DNA of 64,000 nt from Microbacterium aerolatum (GTDB taxonomy: Bacteria; Actinomycetota; Actinomycetes; Actinomycetales; Microbacteriaceae), in contig NZ_BJUW01000014.1 of NCBI RefSeq assembly GCF_007988825.1, positions 1 to 64,000 on the forward strand, in the 5' to 3' direction. The notes under the pieces were generated by a model. It worked only from the letters and a program-made list of their open reading frames with translations, was not told where the DNA came from and made no database searches. This document shows, piece after piece, positions 22,650 through 36,865 of the stretch; positions within the stretch are counted from its first letter, which is position 1, and each line of letters starts with the position of its first letter. A program made the translations under genes and the position numbers.

Positions 22650-22727
<78 letters not shown>

Positions 22728-22789
22728 AGAGAAAATACCCGATCAGAAGGTATCTTCGAGAGGTCGTGAGGTCGGCGTTCGCGCCGGTC

Positions 22790-22841
22790 TTGTACCCAAG
22801 ATTGTACCCGCTGAGCCCCTTGACTCGACATGGTCAAGGGG
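22790..22841. promoter_or_regulatory. candidate integrase arm sites and integrase terminator
   Basis: TTGTACCC occurs at 22790-22797 and 22802-22809, 12 bases apart, which would suit arm-type binding sites. CCCCTTGAC (22816-22824) and GTCAAGGGG (22833-22841) form a 9-bp inverted repeat just after the integrase stop and echo the tRNA sequence ggtcaagggg. It could terminate the integrase transcript or be another binding site. Confidence 0.4.
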
Positions 22842-22852
22842 TTCAGGCGTCT

Positions 22853-23998
22853 CTAGTTGCTCATCGCGGCCTCCCGAAGGTGCTCGTTCATTCGTGCTGC
22901 AGCGTTTTGCAACGCTGTGTTGTCAGTGTGAAGGTACGCACGCGTCGTCTCGACCGATGCATGTCCGAGGATGTCGCTCACAACGTGTATCGGGATGCCG
23001 ATGTTTGCGAACCAGGTTGCACCCGCATGTCGGAGGTCGTGACGGCGCAGCCCTGGCAACCCCAGCGATGCAACCAGCTCGTCCCAGCCGGTTGCGTCAC
23101 GCAATGCTGCCGTGGTGATGACACCGTCACGCGGCCCGCGCATTAGTGGCAGGTTGCGCGACCGTCGCGTTGTGAGCCTGCGCAGCACGGGCTCGAGCGG
23201 TTCGATGATCGGTACGCGGCGGGCGCGACGACCCTTCGGGGGTTTGATGCTCAGGCCGCCGGCGCCGGGGAAACACTGCCGTTCGATCGTGACCATCTTG
23301 TTCTCCCAATCGACATCGCCGACGATGAGCCCGCCCACTTCCGAACTGCGCGCGGCGAGAAACGCGCTGAGCATGACGTGGTCGCCATAGCTTGGGTGGA
23401 TCTCAGCGCAGGATGCAGCGACCCGCGTGACATCATCGGGCGCAGGAATCAGCTTTGCTTGCGGAAGCTCAGTGTTCGGGCGATAGCGCCTGTCGGCGCG
23501 GTCGCGCACAGGATTGCGAGCGATGAGTTCATCGCGCACCGCTTCGTCGAGCACCCGCGTCAGTGCGGCGATCGTGTTCTTCAGCGTGGAGCGGGAGTGC
23601 GTCGCCTCCCAGCTGTCGATCGCTCGGTCGACAAGGCCCGTCGTGATGTCTCGAAGGCGGGTGTGGCCGAGCGTGGGGAGAACCCTGAGCCGGAGTCCGG
23701 CTCGGTATCCGGCTGCCGTCGATGTCGGATCGACGCCGCGAAGGAATCGGTCGCCGATCGAACACGCATAGTCGCTCGGGGTGATGACCGGATCAATGTC
23801 TCGGTTCGAGTTTGTGCACATGAGCTCGAAGAACTTCCGAACGGCTACCTCATCATCGACCGTGACCGATCGGCTCTGGCGTCGATGCGAGAACGGATCG
23901 GTCCAACGGACGCGAGCGCGGATTCGGGAACCGCGGCGGAGGGCGTCGAGGTGGAGGGGCACTCCGTGTGGTGGCAAGGCAGGACGATGAACAGTCAT
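22853..23998 (-). CDS. tyrosine-type integrase of the island
   Basis: The product is about 381 aa. Residues 60-150 form an SAM-like core-binding domain. The C-terminal catalytic domain has Arg in AARSSEVGGL, HDLRHAGATWF, LGHASVETTRAYLH (second His and nucleophile Tyr) and a basic KPPKGRRARRVPI hairpin. It lies 125 bases from attL and reads toward it, the usual arrangement for tRNA-targeting integrases. ATG 23998 is a provisional start; an open frame continues to 24082. Confidence 0.88.
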   Translation of the reverse strand: MTVHRPALPPHGVPLHLDALRRGSRIRARVRWTDPFSHRRQSRSVTVDDEVAVRKFFELMCTNSNRDIDPVITPSDYACSIGDRFLRGVDPTSTAAGYRAGLRLRVLPTLGHTRLRDITTGLVDRAIDSWEATHSRSTLKNTIAALTRVLDEAVRDELIARNPVRDRADRRYRPNTELPQAKLIPAPDDVTRVAASCAEIHPSYGDHVMLSAFLAARSSEVGGLIVGDVDWENKMVTIERQCFPGAGGLSIKPPKGRRARRVPIIEPLEPVLRRLTTRRSRNLPLMRGPRDGVITTAALRDATGWDELVASLGLPGLRRHDLRHAGATWFANIGIPIHVVSDILGHASVETTRAYLHTDNTALQNAAARMNEHLREAAMSN

Positions 23999-24109
23999 CC
24001 GATTGAGGATCTCCCCACATCCCTGCGAACTCAATGCTCCCGCGGAGACGCGATCGGATCGGCGTATCGCACGTTCCCCCAACCGCGATGATGACTGAGT
24101 GTCTGCAAG

Positions 24110-24943
24110 TCAACGGGGGAGAGAACCCAGGATCTCCGCGATCCGCGCATCCTTTTCGGCCGTTTTGATCATGCGCGTGAGGTTCGGACGATCAGTTTGC
24201 AGCGAGCGAGCGAGCTCGGCAACGGAGGCACGAGGATCACTTCCGGCGAGCTCGAGTAGACGGGTGAACCCCGCGAGACTGAACTTCAGGGAAGCGCGCG
24301 TCTGCTCAAGAGTGGCGTCCGCAGCCTCACGCAACAGCCACGCCTGGGCGATGCCCGCAACGATCGGGGAGAACGGCGCGATGTCCGGCGTCTCGATGTG
24401 TGCTTCCAGCTTCTCGTCAGTGCCACCGAACTCGGCCGCGAGAGCGTTCACCCATTCGGCGTATTTCGTGTAGGCGTCGAGCACGTTGTAGGTGTGGGTC
24501 GCCTCGATTCCGCCGTCTGCTAGGGTCCGGATGATCTTCGACTCCTTGGCCCCGACCTCCTCCGGGACGAGCGCGACGATCCGGTCTCGCCAGCCGCCAG
24601 ATCGCCTCACACCGCCATTGTTGAGGCTCTGTGAGAGGAAGAGGCGAAGGGTGTCAGCATGGATCTCCGCCTTGTCGGTCGTGTTGAAGCGGTAGATGCG
24701 CGGTGTGCCGATGGGTGTCCACTCGTAGTCATCCGCCACGCGGATCTCGCCCTCATAGAGAAGGTGCTCACCAGCGGGCGATGTCCACACGAGCACTCGA
24801 CCTTGCTCGGAGATATATCCGTAGAGGTGGTTCGTGTCCTCAGTATCTGCGCTGGCAGCAAGGGCGGAGACGTCATCGCTGTTCTTCACTTCGATGGCAT
24901 GGCGCAGGGTGAGGGTTGCTTCGAGGGCGGGATGATGTGTCAT
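24110..24943 (-). CDS. unrecognised 277-aa protein, possible HTH at C-terminus
   Basis: No family was recognised. Residues 1-110 are mixed alpha/beta with many acidic residues (SADTEDTNHLYGYISEQGRVLVW), the centre is helical, and residues 225-270 look like a helix-turn-helix (DPRASVAELARSLQTDRPNLTRMIKTAEKD). No clear ribosome binding site precedes the ATG, so translation may be leaderless. It lies between the integrase and an acetyltransferase-like gene on the same strand. It could be an excision/transfer regulator or part of a defence module; the sequence does not decide. Confidence 0.65.
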   Translation of the reverse strand: MTHHPALEATLTLRHAIEVKNSDDVSALAASADTEDTNHLYGYISEQGRVLVWTSPAGEHLLYEGEIRVADDYEWTPIGTPRIYRFNTTDKAEIHADTLRLFLSQSLNNGGVRRSGGWRDRIVALVPEEVGAKESKIIRTLADGGIEATHTYNVLDAYTKYAEWVNALAAEFGGTDEKLEAHIETPDIAPFSPIVAGIAQAWLLREAADATLEQTRASLKFSLAGFTRLLELAGSDPRASVAELARSLQTDRPNLTRMIKTAEKDARIAEILGSLPR

Positions 24944-25040
24944 GAGTACACACTACCCGTGAATGGCGAAGCGTTGCTATAGGCACCTCGCCTTGCCGCG
25001 GTACCTACAGCGACGGGTCGGACGGTCGTAGGGACTTAGA

Positions 25041-25676
25041 TCAGCTGGTGAAGTAGTCCTCTTCGTCATAGTCGGTGGCGTCCAGCCACAGAACCTCGTT
25101 GTCAAATAGTGCGAACCCGATGCTTTCCCACGCTTGGCGGACCTTCTGACGGTTGTCACGTAGTGCGCGGCCCCTCATCTTGTGCCATCCGTCTGGCTGC
25201 GCGATCAAAGCGGCGACGGTGATTCGTCGCCGCCCGAGGAATCGAATGGCTGTCGCCACTGCTCGTGGTCCCAGCCGTTGTCCGCGATACTTCGGATCGA
25301 TCCACACGCGATCGATGATGATCGCGTGTGATGGGAAGATCTCCGTTCGCTCGACGATGCCGTCATCCTGGAACAAGGCAGTACCCACGGCTCCGAGGTC
25401 TGCCTCGAGTGCGTCGAGTGCTTCGTATGCGCTGGTGTCGGAGTCCAGATTTACCAAGAAGCAGCGGATGGAGCCGATTGAGGTCACCGTAGGTTCGTCG
25501 CCATCGTCTGGATAGTCAGCGAGACTTAGTTCGGCCCACCAGGGCGTGACGGTGTTCTCGTAGTCTCCATCGTGCGCACCCGCAAGGACTCCTTCGCTGG
25601 AGTATCGAATCTGGATGTCATTGAGATCCACTGCGATTCGGGGGTGCGGGGAAGCTGATTCGTTGCTCTTCGGCAT
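25041..25676 (-). CDS. GNAT-like acetyltransferase
   Basis: In this 211-aa product, residues 120-150 carry a GNAT motif A pattern (IIDRVWIDPKYRGQRLGPRAVATAIRFL). The N-terminal half (PRIAVDLNDIQIRYSSEG, then acidic segments) is not recognised. GNAT proteins in mobile islands are often toxins of toxin-antitoxin pairs, but no antitoxin-like partner (RHH or HTH of 80-100 aa) is adjacent, so this remains unassigned. Confidence 0.65.
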   Translation of the reverse strand: MPKSNESASPHPRIAVDLNDIQIRYSSEGVLAGAHDGDYENTVTPWWAELSLADYPDDGDEPTVTSIGSIRCFLVNLDSDTSAYEALDALEADLGAVGTALFQDDGIVERTEIFPSHAIIIDRVWIDPKYRGQRLGPRAVATAIRFLGRRRITVAALIAQPDGWHKMRGRALRDNRQKVRQAWESIGFALFDNEVLWLDATDYDEEDYFTS

Positions 25677-25711
25677 GGTTCGATCTCAGTTCGGTGATGA
25701 CGGCGTGCTGA

Positions 25712-25925
25712 CGTCAGCGTATCCGCAGGCTCCTGCGCGACGTGATGGACGCGGCCGGGATTGAGAACGTCACCCCGCACCGCTTCCGCCGCACCGTCGC
25801 CACGGGCGTCAACGACGCGCAAGACGCGCTCCCCGCCTCCGAGCTCCTCGGGCACACCGACCCGCGGATCACGATGCAGCACTACATCCAGCGCAGCGAG
25901 ATCGTGAACCCCGTTACCGCGAGCA
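25712..25925 (+). pseudogene. fragment of a tyrosine recombinase (C-terminal catalytic end)
   Basis: The frame opens after a stop at 25709-25711 and encodes RQRIRRLLRDVMDAAG, VTPHRFRRTVATGV, ELLGHTDPRITMQHYIQR, i.e. HxxR, second His and nucleophile Tyr of a tyrosine recombinase, but the core-binding domain and the first catalytic Arg are missing. After about 25925 the frame runs on into the 3' end of the convergent CBASS gene without homology. It is different in sequence from the intact integrase and marks an earlier insertion. Confidence 0.8.
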
Positions 25926-26019
25926 CCTCGAGCGGGCCTTTGGTAAGGCTGGATGACGGGAAGACGATGCCTGCGGAGGGATCACGTGTAGGCATCCTCG
26001 ATGCTCATCGTGCCGATCC

Positions 26020-27792
26020 TTACGGGAAGACATCAGTGATCGGTCCGCCCGTAACGCCAGGTTCGAGGACGAGCACGGGCTTGTAGCGGGGCTCATCCTT
26101 CCTATTGCCATCCCATTCATAGACGACGGTTCGCAGCGTATTGAGGTAGCGCCCAATGAGTACGGCCATCGTGTAAGGACCGTGGAAGGCGAGGTGTACC
26201 TCGGCGCGTCCTTGGCTGGCGGAGAGTTTCTTGATTTGCTGTGCGATGGCCGCGCTGAGACGAGCTGCTTCTCGTGGGTCGATTCGTTCTGTGCTCCCAA
26301 GTGAGATGATCTCGGCTGCGTCGAATCCATCGGCTGAGTCGTTCACAAGCTGTTCGAAAGCGGTCCGATCTGCATGTGGCGTCAGGGTCACGAAGATCGC
26401 CACGCGATGTTGGAGTTCTCCCGCTTGGTCCTGTTCGAATTGGGCGGGCTCGATGGTCAGCTCGGTGGTCTGCGGGTCGTCGTCGGACACGGCGGATGTC
26501 CAGGCATTGCCCTCTGGATCGGTCACGATCACCCTGCCGATCTTCGTTTCGGGCAGAGCCGCACCAACTGCGAGGCCGACTGACAAGTGGGCTCCGCCCG
26601 ATACGCGGACGCTCTTTGCGCCTGCCGCATACACGGCATCGCTGGTGAGCGGGAGAGTCTTCTGGAGCAGTTCCAGGCCGCCTTGGGAAGGTAGTCGACC
26701 GTCGTCCGACGGTTTGAGTCGGATGTGAAGGTCCTCCTCGTCGGCGTCCAGGGCAGATGATGCGGGGCGGCTTTGCACGCGAATCGTGAAATCGCGTGCT
26801 TCTTTGCGAATGCTGGGCTTTCGTTGCTCGATGCGGTGCATCAGAAGGTCACGCACGATCTCGACTTCGCCAGACGGCTGGCGCATGTTCGCCTGCTTTT
26901 TGTCAGCCAGGGTTCGTGCTGGCGCGAGCCGCAGGAGCCGATCCGGGGCGTCGTAGTCACACTTCAACTCTTCACCTACCCGTGTGACCGTGTTTGCGAT
27001 GCACAGGCTGAAGTTGGGATCGGCGTCGAGCTGTAGCAGACGTGGCAGTTCGCGTTCGCGGACGATGTCGCTGTGGGCGATGTCGGGTGTGACGACGAGC
27101 ACGCCTGCCGAGAGACCTCGGGTGAGCGCCTGTTCGAGGCGGTCGGTAGTCGTCCCGGGTCGCAGATCGGTGCGGTCTCTCCATACAACGAGCCCGGCGG
27201 CCCGGAGTAGATCTTCAAGAGCGTCGGCTTGCGGGGTGCCGTCCGATTGGCGGTAGGAGATGAATACTGGGCCGTCGCCGCGGACGGCACCGTCCGGTAA
27301 AGGACCGAGGGGAGGGAATCTCGAAGGAGGAAGCGAGACGACTGCTTCCTTCGTTGTGGTTTTCCCGAACCGTTGACGCCGGGCGATGAGTCCGTAGAAC
27401 CTACCGGTTGCGCCGGGCGCAAAGACGAGCAGCGCGATCGGGTTGGAACTGACCTTGGCGGTCGCGCGCATCGCTGCGTGATCGACGGTGCTCGGTCCAG
27501 ATGGGGAGGGGTGGCTGTGCCACTCACCGACGTAGCCGATCGGATCGTCGTCAGCTCGTTGGTCCAGAAACTCCTGCAAGAGCTCGTCCGCGCGAATGTC
27601 GTCGCGAACGTAACTGTTCGTCGTTGCCCCTTGCCCATCAACAACCAGGGCGTGAGTTGCCACGATGGTGCCGTTGTCCTGGTAGCCGAGGAGGATGCCA
27701 CCGGTCTCCCGAGGGAGGTGGTTCGCTGTCTCGAAGGCGATGGTCTCGTAGGCGTCGACGAGCAGGTCGATGCGCGTTGGTGGTCGAGTCAT
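26020..27792 (-). CDS. CBASS fusion protein: Cap3-like JAMM protease + TIR + SAVED effector
   Basis: The 590-aa product has three parts. Residues 1-165 are a JAB/JAMM metalloprotease: Glu29 in LPRETGGILLGY and 92-HSHPSPSGPSTVD-104, with zinc-binding His92, His94 and Asp104. Residues 174-300 are a TIR domain (VFISYRQSDG, LVVWRDRTDLRPG, RERELPRLL with candidate catalytic Glu). Residues 395-590 match SAVED (SVRVSGGAHLSVGLAVG, IGRVIVTDPEG, HLAFHGPYTMAVLIGRYLN, KPVLVLEPG). In known type II CBASS, Cap3 removes CD-NTase from its Cap2-made conjugates, and TIR-SAVED effectors degrade NAD when a cyclic oligonucleotide is bound. Here both appear in one chain, overlapping cap2 by ATGA. The domain calls are from motifs by eye; the fusion is read directly from one uninterrupted frame. 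Confidence 0.87.
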   Translation of the reverse strand: MTRPPTRIDLLVDAYETIAFETANHLPRETGGILLGYQDNGTIVATHALVVDGQGATTNSYVRDDIRADELLQEFLDQRADDDPIGYVGEWHSHPSPSGPSTVDHAAMRATAKVSSNPIALLVFAPGATGRFYGLIARRQRFGKTTTKEAVVSLPPSRFPPLGPLPDGAVRGDGPVFISYRQSDGTPQADALEDLLRAAGLVVWRDRTDLRPGTTTDRLEQALTRGLSAGVLVVTPDIAHSDIVRERELPRLLQLDADPNFSLCIANTVTRVGEELKCDYDAPDRLLRLAPARTLADKKQANMRQPSGEVEIVRDLLMHRIEQRKPSIRKEARDFTIRVQSRPASSALDADEEDLHIRLKPSDDGRLPSQGGLELLQKTLPLTSDAVYAAGAKSVRVSGGAHLSVGLAVGAALPETKIGRVIVTDPEGNAWTSAVSDDDPQTTELTIEPAQFEQDQAGELQHRVAIFVTLTPHADRTAFEQLVNDSADGFDAAEIISLGSTERIDPREAARLSAAIAQQIKKLSASQGRAEVHLAFHGPYTMAVLIGRYLNTLRTVVYEWDGNRKDEPRYKPVLVLEPGVTGGPITDVFP

Positions 27793-29255
27793 TCGTGACT
27801 CCTTACTTCGCCGATCGACAGGTCTCGCGTTTCCCCCGCGGGGTGGAGAGGGCGATCGACGAGCAGGCCGACGGCGTGGCGCACGGTCGCTGCTGCCGCC
27901 TCGATCACCGCGTAAGGGGGCGTCGGAGAGATTGGACTGCCGCAGCCGGCTTCGAACAGTTCAGACTCAGGCTGATCGACAACGCTGGACGAGGGTGGCA
28001 GCGGTTCGGCTCCGTCGAGCGGCGGCAGCACATCGATTCGGTAGCTCGTGCCGCCGTTCTGGATCGCCGCTGAGACGATCCGCCTGGACAACGCCCGTGC
28101 AGCGACATGGAGGAGTGCAGTGGTGGCGAAATCGGCGGTCGCGTTCACCACGAGATCGTGGTCGGTCAGAAGCTCGACAGCTTCGTCGCCTGAGGTGAGC
28201 GCGTGATCGATCACCTCGATGTCGGCACCTGCAATTCCACCGCGGTCAATCAGATGCTGCTTGACGGCCTTAACCTTCGACCGGCCCACGGCTTCAGGGC
28301 CGACAAGGTGACGGACGAGATTCCCGGGCATAACGACGTCGCTATCGAGCAGGGTGAGTTTCTGGACACCAGAGCGCACGAGTATGTCCACGATGAACGA
28401 GCCGAGGGCTCCGACGCCCACAACTGCGACTCGCCGTCCGCGGAGCTCGGGAGCAAGCTGACCCGAGCGTGCGGCTTTGGCGGCATCGGTGTCAGCACCT
28501 GAGCTCAGGCGCCTGACTGCTATGCCGCCAGTTTCGGTGGGCCATACTTCGAGGGTGATTGCGCCGTCGTGAGAGCCACGGCTGTAGATCAGCACCACGA
28601 TCTCTATCGTGTGCTTGCGAATTCTGCGATCCAGGTCGACGCTGGGGTTGATGCGACCGGAGATGTCGTCCCATGATCTGGGGGGCACGTCTACATCGCC
28701 GAGGTCGGCAACGTATCCGAAGCGATCCTTGCTGTGCTTCGAGGACTTCGCTGGCTTGGTGCCGCCGCCGATTCGCATCAGGTTGTTCGCTGCCGGGCGG
28801 AACCGAACGAATCCGCTGGGATAGCGGGTCAGATCATCGTAGAGATAAAGCCGCTTATCATCGGAGGGCTTGAAGTAGCGGTCGAGGTCTAGGTCGGGTC
28901 GGTCGTCTGGCCAGCCTGCTGCAGCCTGTTCGAACCAGGCAGTGACGTGTTCGAGGAACGCTGGCGCTTCCGTCCACCACAGTCCCTCGTGATCGTCCTC
29001 GGCGATCAAGCACAGCGCCCCGTCCAACTCCCGGTGCCAGGACCACGCGACCGCATCTGAGTCGATCGGAACCACACGGGGTGGCTGAAAGGGGTAGCGG
29101 GAACGCAGCTTTATGAGAACCTCGGTCGCGCCCCCAGAGTGAACGATTGTCCCTCGCCAGCCGCTGTCATCTTTCGTGAAGCCGGCTCGGATCAGCCCTT
29201 CCTCGAAGTGCTGTTGTGAGTATGCGACGTAGTCGTCGTACTCGGTGAGGGTCAC
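27789..29255 (-). CDS. cap2: CBASS Cap2, E2-E1 ubiquitin-transfer-like fusion
   Basis: In this 488-aa product, residues 1-125 resemble an E2 conjugating fold (YPFQPPRVVP, then HRELDGALCLI with candidate catalytic Cys82). Residues 265-470 are a ThiF/E1 adenylation domain with ATP-binding GRRVAVVGVGALGSF (Gly280 onward), LDSDVV, and the E1 catalytic Cys438 in FEAGCGSP. Cap2 joins the C-terminal glycine of its CD-NTase to target proteins, priming the enzyme. The GTG start overlaps the CD-NTase stop (GTGA) and its own stop overlaps the next ATG, so all three CBASS proteins are likely made in step. Confidence 0.9.
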   Translation of the reverse strand: MTLTEYDDYVAYSQQHFEEGLIRAGFTKDDSGWRGTIVHSGGATEVLIKLRSRYPFQPPRVVPIDSDAVAWSWHRELDGALCLIAEDDHEGLWWTEAPAFLEHVTAWFEQAAAGWPDDRPDLDLDRYFKPSDDKRLYLYDDLTRYPSGFVRFRPAANNLMRIGGGTKPAKSSKHSKDRFGYVADLGDVDVPPRSWDDISGRINPSVDLDRRIRKHTIEIVVLIYSRGSHDGAITLEVWPTETGGIAVRRLSSGADTDAAKAARSGQLAPELRGRRVAVVGVGALGSFIVDILVRSGVQKLTLLDSDVVMPGNLVRHLVGPEAVGRSKVKAVKQHLIDRGGIAGADIEVIDHALTSGDEAVELLTDHDLVVNATADFATTALLHVAARALSRRIVSAAIQNGGTSYRIDVLPPLDGAEPLPPSSSVVDQPESELFEAGCGSPISPTPPYAVIEAAAATVRHAVGLLVDRPLHPAGETRDLSIGEVRSHE

Positions 29256-30262
29256 CCGAAGGTCCTCGTGCCCGCCGGGACGGTCCGTGCGCCAGCCGAG
29301 ATGGCGGAAGCGCGCTTCGACCCATCCTCATTGAATCCGGGGGGCATCGGGAACACTGTCTCGTCGTCGCCGTTCTTGCCCAGTAGCTTCTGGAACGCCA
29401 GTGCTGCCTTGCCCTCGTCCTCCTCGGCGAGCGCTTCGCGCGCGGTTTCCGCTGCGTCGGCAAAACGTGCTTTCGCTGCGTCCAGCTCATCATCTGTCGC
29501 ACGAATGCGGATGGTGTGCCCAGGCAGAGTGGGGTCGTTCACCGCGATGCCGAAGGTGACATAGCTGTCGATGATCTTGCTGACCTCTTTGAGCGCAGAG
29601 ACGTAATACTCTGCGTGATCGTTGCCTGAGACCAGGCCGGAGGCGAAGGCCTGGTAGGTCGCGACCTCGATGAAGAACCCACCAGGCTTCTTGCTGGCGC
29701 CGAGTATCGAGCGTCGGGTCTGACGCAGCAGCTTCACCGTGGGAACGTAGTAGCCGTCATGTGCCGCGTTCATCTCGGTCGACAGCGACGTGAGTTTCTC
29801 CGGATTGGTACGCACCCACTCGTCCTCATCGCCCTTCTGCGGGATCTCCCACGTTTCGCCGTCCCAGTAAGGGCGGGCAGGCACCGCGTCGACATACAGG
29901 TCGTACTCGGGGAACGACACTTGCAGACTGCGATCCTGACGCTTCGTTCGTCGGTGACCATCGTCATCGCTACCGAACTCCGCATGCAGAACGGTGAAGA
30001 ATCGGTCGAGGATGTTTTTCGACGTGACGTCGTTCGGTAGGTCCGGGAGTCGCACGAACACGTCGACGTCCTTGACCCGCTTGATCGACACGTTCCTCTT
30101 GTACGAGCCGATCAGCACTGGGTCCACTCCGTACTCGGTGAGCTTCGTGTCGGCTTCGAGTGCATCGCGCACCAGTCGGTGCGCCTCCGGTGCGTTGGCC
30201 TTGTCATCGCCGGGCTCGATGGAGCTCAGCGCATCCTTGAACTGCTGCTTGAGGTGAGCCAT
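29252..30262 (-). CDS. CBASS cGAS/DncV-like nucleotidyltransferase (CD-NTase)
   Basis: The 336-aa product has the nucleotidyltransferase signature GSYKRNVSIKRVKDVDVFV: Gly52-Ser53 and the metal-binding Asp65/Asp67, with the third Asp at 125 in YDLYVDAVPA. CD-NTases make cyclic di- or trinucleotides on phage infection; which one is not readable here, although a SAVED partner usually means a trinucleotide. The chain ends in ...GTRTFG; a C-terminal glycine after a flexible tail is what Cap2-type conjugation requires. An ATG with ggaggg four bases before it fixes the start. Confidence 0.9.
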   Translation of the reverse strand: MAHLKQQFKDALSSIEPGDDKANAPEAHRLVRDALEADTKLTEYGVDPVLIGSYKRNVSIKRVKDVDVFVRLPDLPNDVTSKNILDRFFTVLHAEFGSDDDGHRRTKRQDRSLQVSFPEYDLYVDAVPARPYWDGETWEIPQKGDEDEWVRTNPEKLTSLSTEMNAAHDGYYVPTVKLLRQTRRSILGASKKPGGFFIEVATYQAFASGLVSGNDHAEYYVSALKEVSKIIDSYVTFGIAVNDPTLPGHTIRIRATDDELDAAKARFADAAETAREALAEEDEGKAALAFQKLLGKNGDDETVFPMPPGFNEDGSKRASAISAGARTVPAGTRTFG

Positions 30263-30355
30263 CGGGCCCTCCGATCTCGTTGTGATTGTCTTGGACTTCT
30301 CCGAGCCTGTCCCATGCCACCGACATTTCGGCGAGCATGGAGAGCAGGTGGTGTA

Positions 30356-30472
30356 CTACTTCTTGCCGCGTTTGCCGGTGCTCTCGTTGGTCGTGGTTTT
30401 CGGGTGACGCTTCACTGTGGACTGCTTCACGAACCGCCCCGTGACTGCGCTGCGCCCTCTCTTGCCTGCCAT
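30356..30472 (-). CDS. small basic protein, 38 aa, upstream of CD-NTase
   Basis: The ATG at 30472 follows an excellent ribosome binding site (gaggaggtgagg). The product is Lys/Arg/Thr-rich (GRSAVTGRFVKQSTVKRHPK near the middle), of a type of tiny protein I recall seeing widely in bacteria without function. It is on the CBASS strand, 93 bases before the CD-NTase, and may be the first gene of that operon. An ATG further upstream (30565) is unlikely because it would override the strong site. Confidence 0.7.
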   Translation of the reverse strand: MAGKRGRSAVTGRFVKQSTVKRHPKTTTNESTGKRGKK

Positions 30473-30574
30473 GTTCCTCACCTCCTCGATGTTCCAGACT
30501 CGATGCTGTGTTTCAATTCTAACACGCTTCGTGTCGAAGGCGACGTGCTGTCGCAGATGTGACACACTGGGAGC
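30473..30574. promoter_or_regulatory. divergent control region between CBASS side and HTH/ImmA genes
   Basis: This A+T-richer gap separates oppositely transcribed genes. TGTGTT (30507-30512) and AACACG (30521-30526) form an imperfect inverted repeat with an 8-base spacer, TAGAAT on the minus strand overlaps it, and GTGACACAC lies close to the HTH start. It is a plausible operator for the XRE-type repressor encoded next to it. Confidence 0.4.
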
Positions 30575-30937
30575 ATGGCCAAGACCACGATCAACACGGC
30601 CGCGCTGTACTCCGCCCTAGACGCCGCTCGTCAAGAGAGGCAGCTTTCTTGGCGAGCGCTCGCCGGTGAAGTAGGGGTGAGCCCCTCGTTACTCTCCCGG
30701 CTCGGCAACGGCCTCAAGCCGGACACCGACGGCTTCGCCACGATCATTGCCTGGCTCCGACTCCCGGCCGAGGACTTCTTCGAGCACGAGGGGCAGCACG
30801 ACAACGCACGTGAGCCCGACCTCATGGCGCAGCTCGCACCGCTCCTGCGCGCCCGGAAGGACCTCAGCGAGACCGACGTCAAGTACCTGCAACAGGTCAT
30901 CGGTGCGACCATCGAACGTGCACGGGCTCAGGGATGA
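30575..30937 (+). CDS. XRE-family HTH regulator (CapH-like)
   Basis: In this 120-aa product, residues 10-70 form a helix-turn-helix of XRE type (ALDAARQERQLSWRALAGEVGVSPSLLSRLGNGLKP). The rest is helical and may dimerise. It is followed after 3 bases by an ImmA/IrrE peptidase gene. Such pairs act as repressor plus activating protease; CapH/CapP is the version known to control CBASS operons. Position divergent from the CBASS genes supports that role here, by inference. Confidence 0.83.
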   Translation: MAKTTINTAALYSALDAARQERQLSWRALAGEVGVSPSLLSRLGNGLKPDTDGFATIIAWLRLPAEDFFEHEGQHDNAREPDLMAQLAPLLRARKDLSETDVKYLQQVIGATIERARAQG

Positions 30938-30940
30938 CTC

Positions 30941-31492
30941 GTGCGTCGAGGATTCAAGACCGAGGCGAAGAGCCTCGCGCTGGAGCTACGAGCCGAGATC
31001 GGCCTCGACGCGCATGCGCCTTTCGACCCCTACGCCTTCGCTTCTGAGTACGGCATCCCGGTGGTCCAGCTCAGCGACCTTGATGGTGTCGCGCGTGACC
31101 ACTTCCTGCGGGCGGACGGAAGCGCACTGTCCGGGGCGCTGATCCCGAACGGGAGTGGCGTGGTCATCCTGGAAAACGATGCTCAGACCCTGACTCGTCG
31201 TCGCACCACCATGTGCCACGAACTCGCCCACGTCGTCCTGGAGCACCAGTTCGGCGTCTCGCTTTCCGACGAGAGGAAGTGTGGGCTCGGCGGCGACCAA
31301 GAAGCCGAAGCCGACTGGCTCTCGGGGGAGATGCTGATCCCCAACGACGGAGCATTCCGGCTTGCCAGAGCAAATGCCACCGACGAACAAGCCGCTCACG
31401 CCTACGATGTCAGCCTCGCGATCGCTCGATGGAGGATGAACCACAGCGGTGCGCGCAAAGTCATGCAGCGAGTTCGGGCAAGACGGGCGTAA
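30941..31492 (+). CDS. ImmA/IrrE-family metallopeptidase (CapP-like)
   Basis: This 183-aa gluzincin-type peptidase has zinc motif CHELAHVVLEH near residues 88-98 and downstream Glu in QEAEADWLSGEMLIP, the full ImmA/IrrE pattern. The GTG start is 3 bases after the HTH gene stop. Related proteases cleave their partner HTH repressor in response to DNA damage or foreign DNA. No C-terminal sensory extension is obvious. Confidence 0.86.
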   Translation: MRRGFKTEAKSLALELRAEIGLDAHAPFDPYAFASEYGIPVVQLSDLDGVARDHFLRADGSALSGALIPNGSGVVILENDAQTLTRRRTTMCHELAHVVLEHQFGVSLSDERKCGLGGDQEAEADWLSGEMLIPNDGAFRLARANATDEQAAHAYDVSLAIARWRMNHSGARKVMQRVRARRA

Positions 31493-31614
31493 AGCACAGA
31501 TGACCAACCAAATCAGCGCCATTCCGCTCAGGGCATCGAAGGCGTCTCCAGGATCATCGGCGATCGGCAATGATGGGCGCGACTCTGCGCATTCCGATCG
31601 CAGCGTCCTGCAGG

Positions 31615-32091
31615 CTAGGCCTGCGTTCGCGGATCGAAGCCAGCCGCGGTGCGCGGCACGAGCGTGGGCTCGATCGCCTCACCGAGATGGTGGATGCGCC
31701 AGCTGCTGATTGGTACCACCGCGATCTCTGGGCGCCACACGAGCGTCACGTGCATCGTCGCAGGGACGGCGTCGATGTCATCATTGAGATACGCATCGGT
31801 CTCGACGAGGCGCACATAGGCCACGTCCGGTGCGCCGATGCCGAACAGTGCCGTGGTGCTGATCTTGAGGCCTGAAGAGAAGACGGATCGAGCTCGGGAG
31901 AAATCTTCCCAGGTGCCAAGCGATTCAGGGGTGACGAATGCGCACCCCAACAGTTCGCTCGCATTCGCTTGTTCCATATCTAGGCCGGTACGAAATACAT
32001 CGACGAAGAGCGATGGGTGCCAGTCGGGAAGCGACTCGTAGGTCACCATGGCGTCGTCTTCTTCGGTCCAGCCAGCCGGCTCGTCACTCAT
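31615..32091 (-). CDS. unrecognised 158-aa acidic protein
   Basis: No family was recognised. The product is acidic, with a Trp/His-containing segment (LPDWHPSLFVDVFRTGL) and a probable beta-sheet C-terminal half (MHVTLVWRPEIAVVPISSWRIHHLG). It lies 76 bases downstream of the nuclease/repeat gene on the same strand, so it may be the second gene of that unit. It converges with the ImmA gene. Confidence 0.6.
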   Translation of the reverse strand: MSDEPAGWTEEDDAMVTYESLPDWHPSLFVDVFRTGLDMEQANASELLGCAFVTPESLGTWEDFSRARSVFSSGLKISTTALFGIGAPDVAYVRLVETDAYLNDDIDAVPATMHVTLVWRPEIAVVPISSWRIHHLGEAIEPTLVPRTAAGFDPRTQA

Positions 32092-32167
32092 CTGCCCATA
32101 ATGTCAGGGGTCGCCGACATGGCGGCGAGCTGTTCCTCCGGAGCCCGGTTGCGCTGACGTGTCGGTT

Positions 32168-35100
32168 CTAGGGGGCTTCTGTGTCGCTGAGGGCGGTGCG
32201 CACGCTGTAGGCAGGGTCGTCGGCCAGTACAGCGCGCACATCTGCATGAGCGCCATCGGCTTGGCCCGCGAGCTCGCGGGCGAGCGTTCGCCGCACGCGC
32301 ACGTCGGAGTCACGCGCCAAGCGGATGCCGAGGTGCTCAGGTTCGCCGTGCTCGACCCACTTCAGTGCGACCAGACTTCGGATGGCCCATCCTTGCATCG
32401 AGAGGAACGCAAGGTCGTCGTTCACAGCATCACCAAGACGCTGCAGCGCGATGGTCGGCCAGTAATCGGCCTGTTCGCCGAGTAGAGCGTAGACGACGCG
32501 CCGGACTTCCTTTCGCTGGTCATCGTTGCCGGCGAGGCTGGCGGCAAGCGCCAGCGCCTGCCCGCGACTTCCCTGGGGCATCCCGTTCATGCGGAAGCCG
32601 CCTAGCTTGTGGGTGTGCTGGCTATTGAGTTCGTCGTACTTTGACGGGGTGGGCGAGGTTGCGAGTCGCATGGCAGTCTCAAAATGACTTGCATGGTGGG
32701 CTTCATTGAGATGGCGTGTGAGATTGCCTGCCGCGTTTAGATAGTCTGCGCGATCGCTGGAAGCAAGGTGCGGATCATCTGCGCGAATCAGTAGCTCGGC
32801 GACGGCAGCGTTGATTGAGTCCGAGGGCAGATGGCGAATGAGGAGCGAGTCACCGATCGCGTTCGTACCCACGCTATAGACACCAGTGAGGTGCGTGAGA
32901 GGTGTGGTGAGTCGAGCCAAGGCATCGGCGGCAACAGCCGGATCGATGTCCGTCGGGTCGGCGAGTGCCAGTGTTTCCTGTGCCCAGTGGTTGCCGGCTG
33001 CGGCGAGCGTGGTGAGTCCGTCCCGCGCAAGCGCCTCGTTCTTCGCAATCGCATCGTGGGCAGTCTCACTTCGCGCGCCCTGAGCTCTGCCCAGGAGCGG
33101 CACAAGGTGGGCGATAGCACGTGGAGCGAGGTCCGGATGCCTGAGCGCGATCTTCGCCACAGCAAGCGCCTCATCGTCATCGTGGAACCGGTAGTGGTTC
33201 TCCTGAACCTCCGGTTGCTGCTCAAAGTGTGCCAACGCGGCCGTCGCCGGTGCGTGAGCAATGCGGCCGGCAATACCCGCCAACGCCTTGATTGCGTTGT
33301 TGTAGCGCGAGGTCGCAAAGGAGCGCAGATCGGGTCGGGTGCCTTCCTCGGCTGCCGCGAGCTCCGCGATGATGTGCTCGGCGATGAAGTCCACGAGGGT
33401 GTCGGGAACGAGATCCGCCTGGGAAGCGATGAGGCGGTAGGTGGCACCCACCGTCCAGTAGTTCGGTGCGTCCAGATTCTCCGTGATGTCAAGGAACTGA
33501 AGCGGCAATGACTTGCCCAGTGAGTCGATCCGTTTTGTCGCACCTATCTGCGCGAGGTGATGAGCGGCGAGGGTAGGTTCGTCGGACTCGATCATGATCG
33601 AGGCAAGCACGCGCCGCGCGCGTTCTTCTTCTACCAAGTCGCTAGTCGCGACCGCATCACGCAGCGCGCGCTGCGCGGAGATCGCCGCAGATCGCAGGCT
33701 GCCCTCGTTCAGTCCTGACAGTGCGTCGACGTAGGCGTCATGGGCCGTCGGCACGATTGGCTTGGAGATACCCATTTCTCGGACAGCGGTTTGCAAAGGA
33801 AGTAGTTCGTTACTTGTGAACGGGTTCCAGCGTGAGCGGAAGGCACGCCTGCTGAAGATCCACGTCGATGCCTCGCCCCACTGAGAGGCAAGCGACGCAA
33901 AGCCGGAGGCCTCATCCCAGGCTAGGTCGGCTTCCTTGAACTTCTCGTACCGAGCGAGGCTGCGTGCGTGGCGAGCGGCGATGAGTCCGGAGACGCTATA
34001 TCCGTGGGTGATCTTTCGAGCGTCGGTGAGAAGCTCTGCCCAGTCCTGCGTCGACTCGGCGATGATCAGGCGAAGGCGAGTACGTCGCATTTGATCGAGA
34101 CCAGGAAGACGGGACAACTCGGCCAGGGTGGGGACAGCGCTGCTCAGCCAGTCGGAGCGGTCGTTAGCAATAGCTGTTTCGCCTGCGAGGAGCGCGAGAC
34201 GTACCTGGTCCTCGGGCTCCCCAAGCCGCAGCTCCTTGACGTCCGGAAGATAGCCGAGCGGATTCATATAGAGGTTGATTGCGCATTCGGCGACCTTGCG
34301 GCAGGCATCTACTGTTGGGGCAATTTCGGCCTGAGTTGTTAACTCCGCTAGACGTGACTGCGTTATCTGGGCGGTTGTCGCGAGGCCTTGCTCGAGTGCC
34401 GACCAGAACTCATCGAGAGTGTGGCGTGACGCCTCCTCGGCTCGTCCGTTGAGAGCCAAGAGGCGCACGCGCTCCTTCTCGTGAGACGCCGCATGAGGCT
34501 TGAACCCTGCATTGTGCAGGGCAGCCTGCCCCTTCTCGATGAGCGCAAGCGCCTGTTCGGGATCGGTCGTTTCAGCCGCCTTATCAAAAAACTCCTGAGC
34601 ACCCGTCGAGACCTCGGGAGTGCGTGCGATTGCCTCTCGCACCGCGGCAGCATCGGCGGTGGGTACCTGGGTAACATCGATCTTGAACTTGTGACAGAAC
34701 GCCTCTGCCGTGGGCATACCGAAGTACTCGATCACGATCTCTGGCCGTTTACGCAAGAGCGCCGAGAGCTCCTGCGCATCCCAAAGGTCGAGAACGACCG
34801 GTCGAAGCTCCTTACGCTGAACAGCCAGCTCCTCGACTGCACCGGTGCTCTTGACTGCGCATGCCACGCCCAAAATCAGGCGCTGAACCGTGAACGGTCG
34901 CTCCGTAGTGAGGAACTTCTTGACCGCGGCGGTGAGCTGTGACTTCCCGAACCGCTTGTAGTTCTTGCTCTGAAGAGCGACGCCTGCGCCGTCCGGTGCC
35001 AGCGCAACGATGTCGAGTCCGAGTTGAGCCTGCCCGCGGTCTCCGTAAAGCTGTGCTTCACGAAGTCCTTCGACGTCTCGCATCATCCGCAGTTGAAGGC

Positions 35101-35230
35101 GTTCGAAGTTCTCCCATGAAAGGGAAGTGAACGGGAGCTCCTCCAGCTTGCCGATCACCGGAGCCGGGGTGGTGACCGACGCAGGTGCATACAGCGTTGA
35201 AGCCAATGACAGATGTTTCCAGTCAGCCAC
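32168..35230 (-). CDS. PD-(D/E)xK nuclease domain fused to long helical repeats, putative defence protein
   Basis: This product is about 1020 aa. Residues 38-110 fit a PD-(D/E)xK (Mrr-like) fold: Glu40 in WENFERL, Asp73 in LGLDIVAL and the QxK motif in VALQSKNY (87-89). From about 240 to the end the sequence is alpha-helical repeat, TPR-like in places (EQALALIEKGQAALHNAGF). No Walker A motif is present, so it is not a STAND/Avs NTPase. GTG 35230 is chosen for its aaggggg site 5 bases upstream; an open frame extends to 35425. It is divergent from a SIR2-family gene, 233 bases away. Confidence 0.78.
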   Translation of the reverse strand: MADWKHLSLASTLYAPASVTTPAPVIGKLEELPFTSLSWENFERLQLRMMRDVEGLREAQLYGDRGQAQLGLDIVALAPDGAGVALQSKNYKRFGKSQLTAAVKKFLTTERPFTVQRLILGVACAVKSTGAVEELAVQRKELRPVVLDLWDAQELSALLRKRPEIVIEYFGMPTAEAFCHKFKIDVTQVPTADAAAVREAIARTPEVSTGAQEFFDKAAETTDPEQALALIEKGQAALHNAGFKPHAASHEKERVRLLALNGRAEEASRHTLDEFWSALEQGLATTAQITQSRLAELTTQAEIAPTVDACRKVAECAINLYMNPLGYLPDVKELRLGEPEDQVRLALLAGETAIANDRSDWLSSAVPTLAELSRLPGLDQMRRTRLRLIIAESTQDWAELLTDARKITHGYSVSGLIAARHARSLARYEKFKEADLAWDEASGFASLASQWGEASTWIFSRRAFRSRWNPFTSNELLPLQTAVREMGISKPIVPTAHDAYVDALSGLNEGSLRSAAISAQRALRDAVATSDLVEEERARRVLASIMIESDEPTLAAHHLAQIGATKRIDSLGKSLPLQFLDITENLDAPNYWTVGATYRLIASQADLVPDTLVDFIAEHIIAELAAAEEGTRPDLRSFATSRYNNAIKALAGIAGRIAHAPATAALAHFEQQPEVQENHYRFHDDDEALAVAKIALRHPDLAPRAIAHLVPLLGRAQGARSETAHDAIAKNEALARDGLTTLAAAGNHWAQETLALADPTDIDPAVAADALARLTTPLTHLTGVYSVGTNAIGDSLLIRHLPSDSINAAVAELLIRADDPHLASSDRADYLNAAGNLTRHLNEAHHASHFETAMRLATSPTPSKYDELNSQHTHKLGGFRMNGMPQGSRGQALALAASLAGNDDQRKEVRRVVYALLGEQADYWPTIALQRLGDAVNDDLAFLSMQGWAIRSLVALKWVEHGEPEHLGIRLARDSDVRVRRTLARELAGQADGAHADVRAVLADDPAYSVRTALSDTEAP

Positions 35231-35463
35231 AAATGCCCCCTTGCCCCGCCCGGTCGCGCCCTTACTCAGGGCCGAGCCTGTCGACTCCATCCTACGAGAG
35301 GCGCTGAAGGGCGCTCCCTCACCAAGGTTCGACGCCAATCGTGGGGAACACCCACTGACTAGCATGCTTCGCATGCGACGGGAAGGGCCCGCCTCCAGTG
35401 CCAGAAACATCCGCTCGGAGGGCACGTGTACCTTTCGTGTCTGCCCGGCGTCGCTGGTGAGAG

Positions 35464-36600
35464 ATGGGTCGCCGCTGCCATGCTGGTATCGTGCAGACGA
35501 ATCTCGACGAGGCCCGTGAGTGGGTGGGGCGGGCGAGCGGGCGAGCCCTATTCCTCTTGGGCGCGGGGGCCTCTAAGCCTGCGCTTCCGGTCTCCGCTGA
35601 GCTCACTGAGATCGTGCTCGCGAGCATTGATGAGGCGACACTCAACTTCGCTGCTGAATCGCGGGTCCCGGAGCTCTGGCGGGATATTCGTCCGGTGCTC
35701 GCATCGATGGGCTCAAACATCGAGGATCTTTACCAAGCGGTCGAGACGCTGACCTATCAGGACTCTGACCCGACGCGGTTCTGGGTTAAAGGTTTCATGG
35801 AGTTCCCTACCTACGGCGGTAACACCGCAGAGCTGGCACGAGACGCTCAGTGGATCCTCGACATGGTCCAGGGGCACACCCTCGGTGCGCTTGATACCGC
35901 CCAGGCAGATGCGCCACTTGGTCACTTTGAGCCGTTGCTTCGTGCCGCCAAGACGGGCATCGTCACGCTTAACTACGACCAGCTCATTGAGCGGGCTGGT
36001 GAGAAGTTCGGTGTCGAAGTCTCCACAGGAGCCGAGCTGTGGGATGGAGGCTTCCAGTGGCAATTCGGGACAGCAGCCGTGCATCTCCTGAAGATGCATG
36101 GCTCCATGACCTGGCGCGGCTCTCGATCAATCAACCATGAGAGCGGGAACCTCGTCCCGGCTGTCGGCTTCTATGAAACGAGCGGTCTCAACGAAGCTGC
36201 GCCCAATCGACTTCTGACCCCGACCGTCATCTTCGGATCGGGTTCGAAAACCACTCCCTTCTCGGCTTTCCCGGCGTTGACTCGTCAGTTCCACGACTGG
36301 CTTGAAAGATCAGAGCTGCTGGTCGTGGTCGGCTACTCCTTCCGCGATCAACATGTGGATGCGGCGATCCGCCGCTGGGCTTCGTTGTCACCGTCTCGTC
36401 GCATCGTCGTGATCGACCCTTATCCGCGTCGCCACATCCGCCAAGACGAGGACACCCTCGGCGGATTGCTTTGGGCGATGGATGCGGAGTACCGGACGCC
36501 GGACGCAGATGCTCCATCCGTGGCTGCCACTCTGGGAAAAAACCGGATGATCTTCCTGACCGGAGGCGTGGAGAGCCTCCTCCCAGCGCTAGTTGCTTAG
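35464..36600 (+). CDS. SIR2-family protein, putative NAD-consuming defence effector
   Basis: The 378-aa product has the SIR2 signatures ALFLLGAGASKPALP near residue 28 (NAD-binding GAGAS), GIVTLNYDQLIERA, LLKMHGSMTW (HG pair) and LLVVVGYSFRDQHVDAAIRRW. This is the pattern of stand-alone SIR2 domains in anti-phage systems, which deplete NAD. ATG 35464 or GTG 35491 could start it. It is divergent from the nuclease/repeat gene and is the last gene before attR. Confidence 0.87.
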   Translation: MGRRCHAGIVQTNLDEAREWVGRASGRALFLLGAGASKPALPVSAELTEIVLASIDEATLNFAAESRVPELWRDIRPVLASMGSNIEDLYQAVETLTYQDSDPTRFWVKGFMEFPTYGGNTAELARDAQWILDMVQGHTLGALDTAQADAPLGHFEPLLRAAKTGIVTLNYDQLIERAGEKFGVEVSTGAELWDGGFQWQFGTAAVHLLKMHGSMTWRGSRSINHESGNLVPAVGFYETSGLNEAAPNRLLTPTVIFGSGSKTTPFSAFPALTRQFHDWLERSELLVVVGYSFRDQHVDAAIRRWASLSPSRRIVVIDPYPRRHIRQDEDTLGGLLWAMDAEYRTPDADAPSVAATLGKNRMIFLTGGVESLLPALVA

Positions 36601-36819
36601 CCTCTAAGCAACCGGGGCTGACCGCGATCTTCGGGTGATCGTTGCGACACGGATTTGTCCATCTCAGTGAGTTCGCTGGCGAACGGAGGAGGTCGGCGGT
36701 CGAAGCGGGGGACCAAAAGGGGACCAGAATCATGCAAACCATGCATGTCGTGACGTGTTCTGCACGCTCAGATCCCCGAAAACATGCGGATTTCGGTTCC
36801 ATCGAAGCCGTCTGGACGC
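36601..36819. other. non-coding right end of island
   Basis: No gene is supported in these 219 bases. GGGGACCA occurs at 36708-36715 and 36719-36726, 11 bases apart, a spacing that suits integrase arm sites. A partly palindromic stretch with ATGCA words (near 36733-36747) follows. Confidence 0.5.
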
Positions 36820-36865
36820 CTGGGGGTCAAGGGGTCGCAGGTTCAAATCCTGTCAGCCCGACCGA
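36820..36865 (+). repeat. attR, 46-bp direct repeat of tRNA-Pro 3' half
   Basis: This is an exact copy of 22682-22727. It lacks the 5' half of the tRNA, so it is not a second tRNA gene. The sequences diverge immediately outside (c/a on both sides), fixing the repeat length. Confidence 0.95.

Follow-up and report, generated by a model that had tools for sequence, protein, structure and literature searches.

The divergent helix-turn-helix (HTH) and M78 (ImmA/IrrE) peptidase genes beside the CBASS operon of Microbacterium aerolatum are best read as a controller of the CapH/CapP type, in which a repressor cut by the peptidase would open the operon, and in which the whole unit moves as a cassette. 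We give this reading a probability of about 0.78. The pair very probably controls the adjoining operon, and this control probably works by proteolysis. As to the trigger, we lean toward DNA damage, and direct sensing of single-stranded DNA (ssDNA) by the peptidase is unlikely. An earlier note on this DNA had proposed that a CapH/CapP switch governs both the CBASS operon and itself, with a peptidase activated by ssDNA. Synteny, cassette exchange and the co-exchange of the operator with the HTH gene strongly support the first part of that proposal; the ssDNA trigger fared worse.

The features of the locus are listed in table 1, with positions in the window, that is, the whole 64-kb stretch of DNA analyzed. 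ORF coordinates, Pfam and PADLOC agree with the arrangement originally described, an HTH gene and a HELAH peptidase gene separated by 3 bases and divergent from CBASS. The operon encodes a CD-NTase together with an effector and E1-E2/JAB functions and is a type II CBASS. It lies in a 14.1-kb integrative island (22682–36865) with exact direct repeats of 46 bp; the left copy sits at the 3′ end of a tRNA-Pro (GGG) gene, and a tyrosine integrase gene occupies 22853–24082. Farther along the island, the region 31615–36600 contains a 158-aa ORF and a 1085-aa ORF that are conserved in two related loci (L002 and L016), and a SIR2 gene that is also conserved in L002. The 1085-aa product has no Pfam match, and its N-terminal part looks nuclease-like by eye. 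This region is possibly a second, undescribed defence system.

Table 1. Features of the CBASS operon and of its divergent controller, by position in the window
Feature	Position	Strand	Basis
JAB-TIR-SAVED fusion effector, single chain	26020–27792	−	Pfam and PADLOC
E1-E2 fusion	27789–29255	−	Pfam and PADLOC
CD-NTase, CBASS cyclase, SMODS (cdn)	29252–30262	−	Pfam 4.3e-14; PADLOC PDLC00810 8.5e-160
Basic protein of 38 aa, leading the leftward operon, strong Shine-Dalgarno GAGGAGGTGAGG	30356–30472	−	tblastn
O3, weaker conserved half-site GTTCYA	30489–30506		function proposed
O1, proposed operator GTGTT-N8-AACAC, perfect inverted repeat	30508–30525		conservation, uniqueness; role proposed
Proposed −10 TAGAAT of the CBASS operon, inside O1	30517–30522	−	conservation; role proposed
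O2, conserved block (CTGTCGCAGATGTGACACACT) directly upstream of the HTH start, proposed to serve autoregulation	30548–30568		function proposed
XRE HTH putative repressor, CapH-like, 120 aa	30575–30937	+	Pfam, AlphaFold2, Foldseek
Short CapP-like M78 (ImmA/IrrE) zinc peptidase, 183 aa, GTG start	30941–31492	+	Pfam E = 2.2e-11

The HTH protein scores just below the curated Pfam cut-offs for HTH_31 and HTH_3. Its AlphaFold2 model (mean pLDDT 80, pTM 0.51) comprises an HTH domain (residues 1–70), a weakly predicted linker (72–80) and two C-terminal helices, a plan common to SinR, DdrO and other repressors. A Foldseek search with this model gave no match at E ≤ 0.001; the N-terminal domain of CapH (7t5u) ranked 18th (E = 0.029) among many XRE/HTH folds. 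No CapH chain was found among the PDB sequence matches of the protein.

The peptidase carries the HELAH motif at residues 93–97 (H93, E94, H97), followed by C114 and E121. HExxH and the downstream E..A are invariant in 27 aligned homologues. The zinc peptidase active site, HExxH with its downstream Glu, is intact. Similarity to CapP is seen through the PADLOC capP profile (E = 1.9e-14), which matches at positions 5–157 of 242 and leaves 158–242 (85 positions) unmatched. A single-sequence search against the CapP chain 7t5t reached only E = 0.094, and a PDB search with a narrow profile of eight close relatives returned nothing at E ≤ 1. The structural model (mean pLDDT 57.8) places PprI/IrrE within the top ten fold matches, none at E ≤ 0.001; it is too weak for mechanism and was used only for family resemblance. 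The solved CapP chain is 291 aa long, against 183 aa here, and 26 homologues, read from the match or the gene start, range from 148 to 211 aa. The C-terminal region that CapP has beyond its peptidase core is not found in this protein.

A pattern scan with the peptidase across 84,980 species genomes returned 16 loci, 14 of which have the HTH gene (L002–L015), all in Actinomycetota. L016 and L017 contain only part of the peptidase and were left out; L016 is from the same genome as L015, whose peptidase is truncated. In that genome, Pseudactinotalea suaedae, the peptidase gene is split across two contig ends, with the motif altered to HEPAH near the break, by either an insertion or an assembly break. 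Together with the window, L034 (genome G213) and a Tsukamurella plasmid (L096), these loci form a set of 17; L033, which from its equal length looks like the same contig as L013, was not counted. Across the set the peptidase is 73–99% identical, the HTH and M78 genes are adjacent, and an immune operon lies divergent from the HTH gene in every case.

These operons are of four kinds, identified by profiles in the window, L003, L012 and L013 and assigned by tblastn identity in the other loci. Seven are type II CBASS operons of the window type (window, L002, L006, L011, L014, L015, L096). Eight, by count, are type II CBASS operons with a cyclase of another family (L003, L004, L005, L007–L010, L034). 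One is a type III CBASS with HORMA, TRIP13 and NucC (L012), and one a Pycsar operon with two PycC and PycTM (L013). In L096 the annotation splits the effector in two, and in L014 only 74 effector residues match. Next to more distant window-type cyclases (33–50% identity), no tblastn match to the controller was found in any of six cases, so the controller is optional. A genome of the same genus (L119) carries a related CBASS (cyclase 46%) with NucC-like and TIR-SAVED genes, and no match to the HTH/M78 controller.

The inverted repeat reported earlier between the HTH gene and the CBASS operon is real: O1 has perfect arms and is the sole exact match to its pattern in the window, where matches with up to two mismatches occur at chance level (8 vs 8.55 expected). 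The 16-base core of O1, GTTTCAATTCTAACAC, recurs unchanged in 14 of the 17 loci, and all 17 match it within two mismatches. This core has a single occurrence in the 3.2-Mb genome at up to two mismatches, so control should be local. The full five-base arms are perfect in only three loci (window, L014 and L096); the shorter GTT-N8-AAC persists in 16. The minus strand of O1 contains TANNNT in all 17 loci (TAGAAT in 14, otherwise TAGTAT, TACAAT or TAGACT). As this is a plausible −10, the promoter rather than the repressor may account for some of the conservation. A simple sigma-70 scan found no promoter, and the −10 is proposed from its conservation. On the HTH side, the O2 block GCAGATGTGACACACT and its variants are seen in an alignment of 15 loci and in two more. 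To the left of O1, GTTCYA (O3) is present in 16 of the 17. The region 30473–30574, which the earlier note had named for binding of the HTH protein, adjoins with its first base the initiation codon of the 38-aa ORF, a gene that the note left unmentioned.

Three comparisons show that this controller has been exchanged as a cassette among immune operons. First, the window and L008, whose operon is of the second type II kind, are 78–98% identical at the DNA level in bins of 60 columns between 30377 and 31450; identity falls to 37–43% left of 30320. A controller segment of ~1.1 kb is thus conserved where the adjoining operon is unrelated. Second, in L012 residues 1–37 of a window-type cyclase (68%) remain at the expected beginning of that gene and are followed by the type III operon; this remnant is a scar of replacement. 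Third, L045 (genome G212) carries an operon closely similar to that of L003 (cyclase 93%, E2 91%, E1 94%, JAB 85%, TIR-SAVED 91%). Its 38-aa ORF is 92% identical to that of the window, with a similar Shine-Dalgarno region, whereas its HTH and M78 proteins are only 32% and 30% identical to those of the window and its operator region is different. Here the operon has been kept and the controller replaced together with its operator. In a concatenated HTH and M78 tree (16 rows, without L015), five changes of operon kind are required, the minimum being three; labels shuffled on the same tree need 6.9 on average, and as few as five in 16 of 200 shuffles. One of the 12 inner branches is well supported and nine are open, and the well-supported branches by themselves demand no second change for either of the two type II CBASS groups. 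The argument for exchange is drawn from the mosaic borders and not from the tree. No description of such a controller exchange was found in one open-licence literature library.

CapH and CapP are an HTH repressor and an M78 peptidase encoded beside CBASS (Lau et al. 2022, as described in PMC13373217, PMC10904395 and PMC10233336). The window shares this plan and matches the capP profile; its HTH protein is unmatched to CapH by sequence, and the 38-aa ORF that leads its operon may be a further difference. We class the controller as a compact variant that probably works as CapH/CapP does, with a peptidase that lacks the C-terminal region. For binding, repression, cleavage and trigger we infer the following scheme. 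The HTH protein, probably as a dimer, would bind O1 and so keep closed the leftward promoter, which serves the 38-aa ORF and the CBASS operon; by binding O2 it would hold down transcription of its own gene. A stress signal, in the likeliest case DNA damage in the course of infection, would lead the M78 peptidase to cleave the repressor, probably within the linker or the C-terminal part, whereupon both promoters would open. HTH gene, peptidase gene and operator are inherited as a cassette able to front different immune operons.

The alternative that survives best retains a CapH/CapP-like controller with another trigger: a metal, a redox change, a phage product or the 38-aa protein. It arises from the missing sensor domain, and we hold it to be a credible reading with odds below even. 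PprI without its GAF-like domain is reported neither to bind ssDNA nor to be stimulated and activated by it (PMC10904395). The C-terminal region of CapP can be called GAF-like because the same source states that CapP aligns with PprI. Since the 183-aa peptidase lacks this region, the capP match ending at position 157, the ssDNA step cannot be assumed, and ssDNA activation as put forward in the earlier note is unsupported for this short form. A zinc or redox trigger has been reported for IrrE (PMC7907104). The loop between HExxH and E..A contains a cysteine in 24 of the 27 homologues, as it does in the CapP chain 7t5t. A cysteine switch is one idea for CapP. On the other hand, the short form could bind ssDNA through a basic tail, and the ImmA proteins of integrative and conjugative elements (ICEs) are also short, which counts against a different trigger. 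For the ImmA of an ICE, moreover, activation by DNA damage has been predicted (PMC10233336).

It is improbable that the pair is an ImmR/ImmA-type regulator that controls excision of a mobile element, with CBASS as a passenger. The locus does lie in an island with a tyrosine integrase at tRNA-Pro, and ImmR/ImmA pairs, which have a similar plan, control ICEs such as ICEBs1 and TnSmu1 (PMC10233336). However, kin of the window integrase were found in only three of 16 related loci (L002, 59% over 90 aa; L015, 33% over 87 aa; L034, 29% over 360 aa) in a search that covered 9–19 kb per locus and that farther or unrelated integrases would escape, whereas an immune operon is present in 17 of 17. The steady linkage to integrase or transfer genes that characterizes ImmR/ImmA is thus not seen for kin of this integrase. 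Likewise, no operator copy lies near the integrase promoter, the nearest two-mismatch match being inside the integrase ORF. Both co-occurrence and the operator search therefore disfavour an integrase regulator.

Beyond the close set, a peptidase profile found 15 places in 14 of 394 genomes of the class. Eight adjoin a cyclase, Pycsar or E1 operon (window, L013/L033, L034, L036, L037, L038, L045, and L046 with a weak E1 match). No immune operon was recognized at the other seven (L035, L039–L044); in L039 a SIR2-like gene lies ~2 kb from the M78 gene. Plasmids gave 31 matching records, of which six were inspected. The Tsukamurella plasmid is one of the 17 loci; on an Acidiphilium plasmid the HTH/M78 pair faces multiubiquitin, E2 and ThiF genes, on a Mycolicibacterium plasmid it faces genes including one for a Mov34/JAB protein, and on three Rhodococcus plasmids nothing was recognized facing the pair. 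The seven places without a recognized immune operon could suggest that HTH and M78 form a toxin-antitoxin-like or otherwise self-contained unit unrelated to CBASS expression, but the exchange before four kinds of immune operon and the inverted repeat over the proposed −10 make this very improbable. A phage origin was rejected, as only 2 of 50,697 phage records matched at E ≤ 1e-5, both P2 at 30%, and the IMG/VR pattern scan gave only three distant loci (26–31%); closest relatives among phage or ICE repressors, the outcome that the earlier note had set against its own proposal, were looked for and not encountered.

The 38-aa ORF was detected by tblastn in 15 of the 17 loci, the window included, with a shortened match in L010. 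It is absent from L013 and L014 by the same search and so is not indispensable. At the corresponding place on the Tsukamurella plasmid no gene is annotated in the PLSDB gene table, which is incomplete. The protein has a computed pI of 12 and a pN/pS of 0.25 over all pairs of 13 sequences (L007, L010 and L011 left out). It has no match in Pfam, PADLOC, NCBIfam, PHROGs or PDB, the query for Pfam and PADLOC being a longer 69-aa reading; a 67-aa relative has no Pfam match either. Nothing similar was found in phage records, and four of its motif strings had no occurrence in the literature searched.

Members of this family share the motif RSAxTGRFVxxxTxxRHPxTT in one or two copies. The 394 genomes of the class contain 36 such places in 26 clusters; for nine of these clusters an M78 gene is no more than 2 kb away, where 0.05 would be expected. 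The other 17 clusters have other settings; among those inspected, not all of them, were a gene weakly resembling sigma factors and small proteins of the DUF2188 or DUF1508 type. Double-motif relatives of 67 aa (L083, L087, L088, L092) adjoin HTH/M78 pairs in the last three loci and a weak sigma-factor-like gene in L083. In L085 (3984–4073), a relative is joined to a weak ribbon-helix-helix match (E = 0.0015, under the cut-off). In L036, a relative (62%) is divergent from an HTH gene and ~1.1 kb before cyclase and E1-E2 genes, with a SAVED endonuclease gene on the opposite strand. On a Streptomyces plasmid (L103, 2315–5609), an HTH-M78 fusion and one small gene are followed by a divergent 38-aa relative, multiubiquitin and ThiF.

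We considered the 38-aa protein as an antirepressor specific to this HTH protein. This is disfavoured since in L045 it is kept at 92% identity while the HTH protein is at 32%. Rather speculatively, it may be a genuine third part of the immunity that HTH/M78 pairs would control, and may act on one shared target. Its effector contexts include the two type II CBASS kinds and type III CBASS. It would be made first when the switch opens and would license or restrain the operon, its target being, for example, nucleic acid or the peptidase. If so, it would be the founding member of a family of short proteins that carry this motif and lie outside the searched libraries. The gene is a candidate for an unstudied immune component of a kind that annotation can miss.

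Other known systems share parts of this design. PprI/IrrE and DdrO of Deinococcus likewise pair an M78 peptidase with a repressor bearing C-terminal helices, and DdrO is among the fold matches of the HTH protein; PprI differs by its GAF-like domain (PMC10904395), and the pair controls DNA-repair genes rather than an adjacent immune operon. ImmR/ImmA control a conjugative element, whereas the window pair has no consistent integrase link. CapW/BrxR and CapK/CapS are, like the proposed controller, DNA-damage controllers found before several kinds of immune operon, but they belong to other protein families (WYL; STAS and kinase) (PMC13373217). The same source links 219 of 544 Bub operons to CapW or to CapH+CapP, so controllers serving several pathways are already known. 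What appears new here, from sequence comparison, is close controller copies on unrelated operons together with a replacement scar.

CBASS can kill its host when misfired, and how it stays off is therefore a real question. With the sensor region missing, one must also ask how short forms are switched open. The loci described here amount to a natural swap experiment, with one controller and its operator before four immune operons and, conversely, two controllers before a single operon. These natural swaps predict the DNA bound by the repressor and make modular control directly testable.
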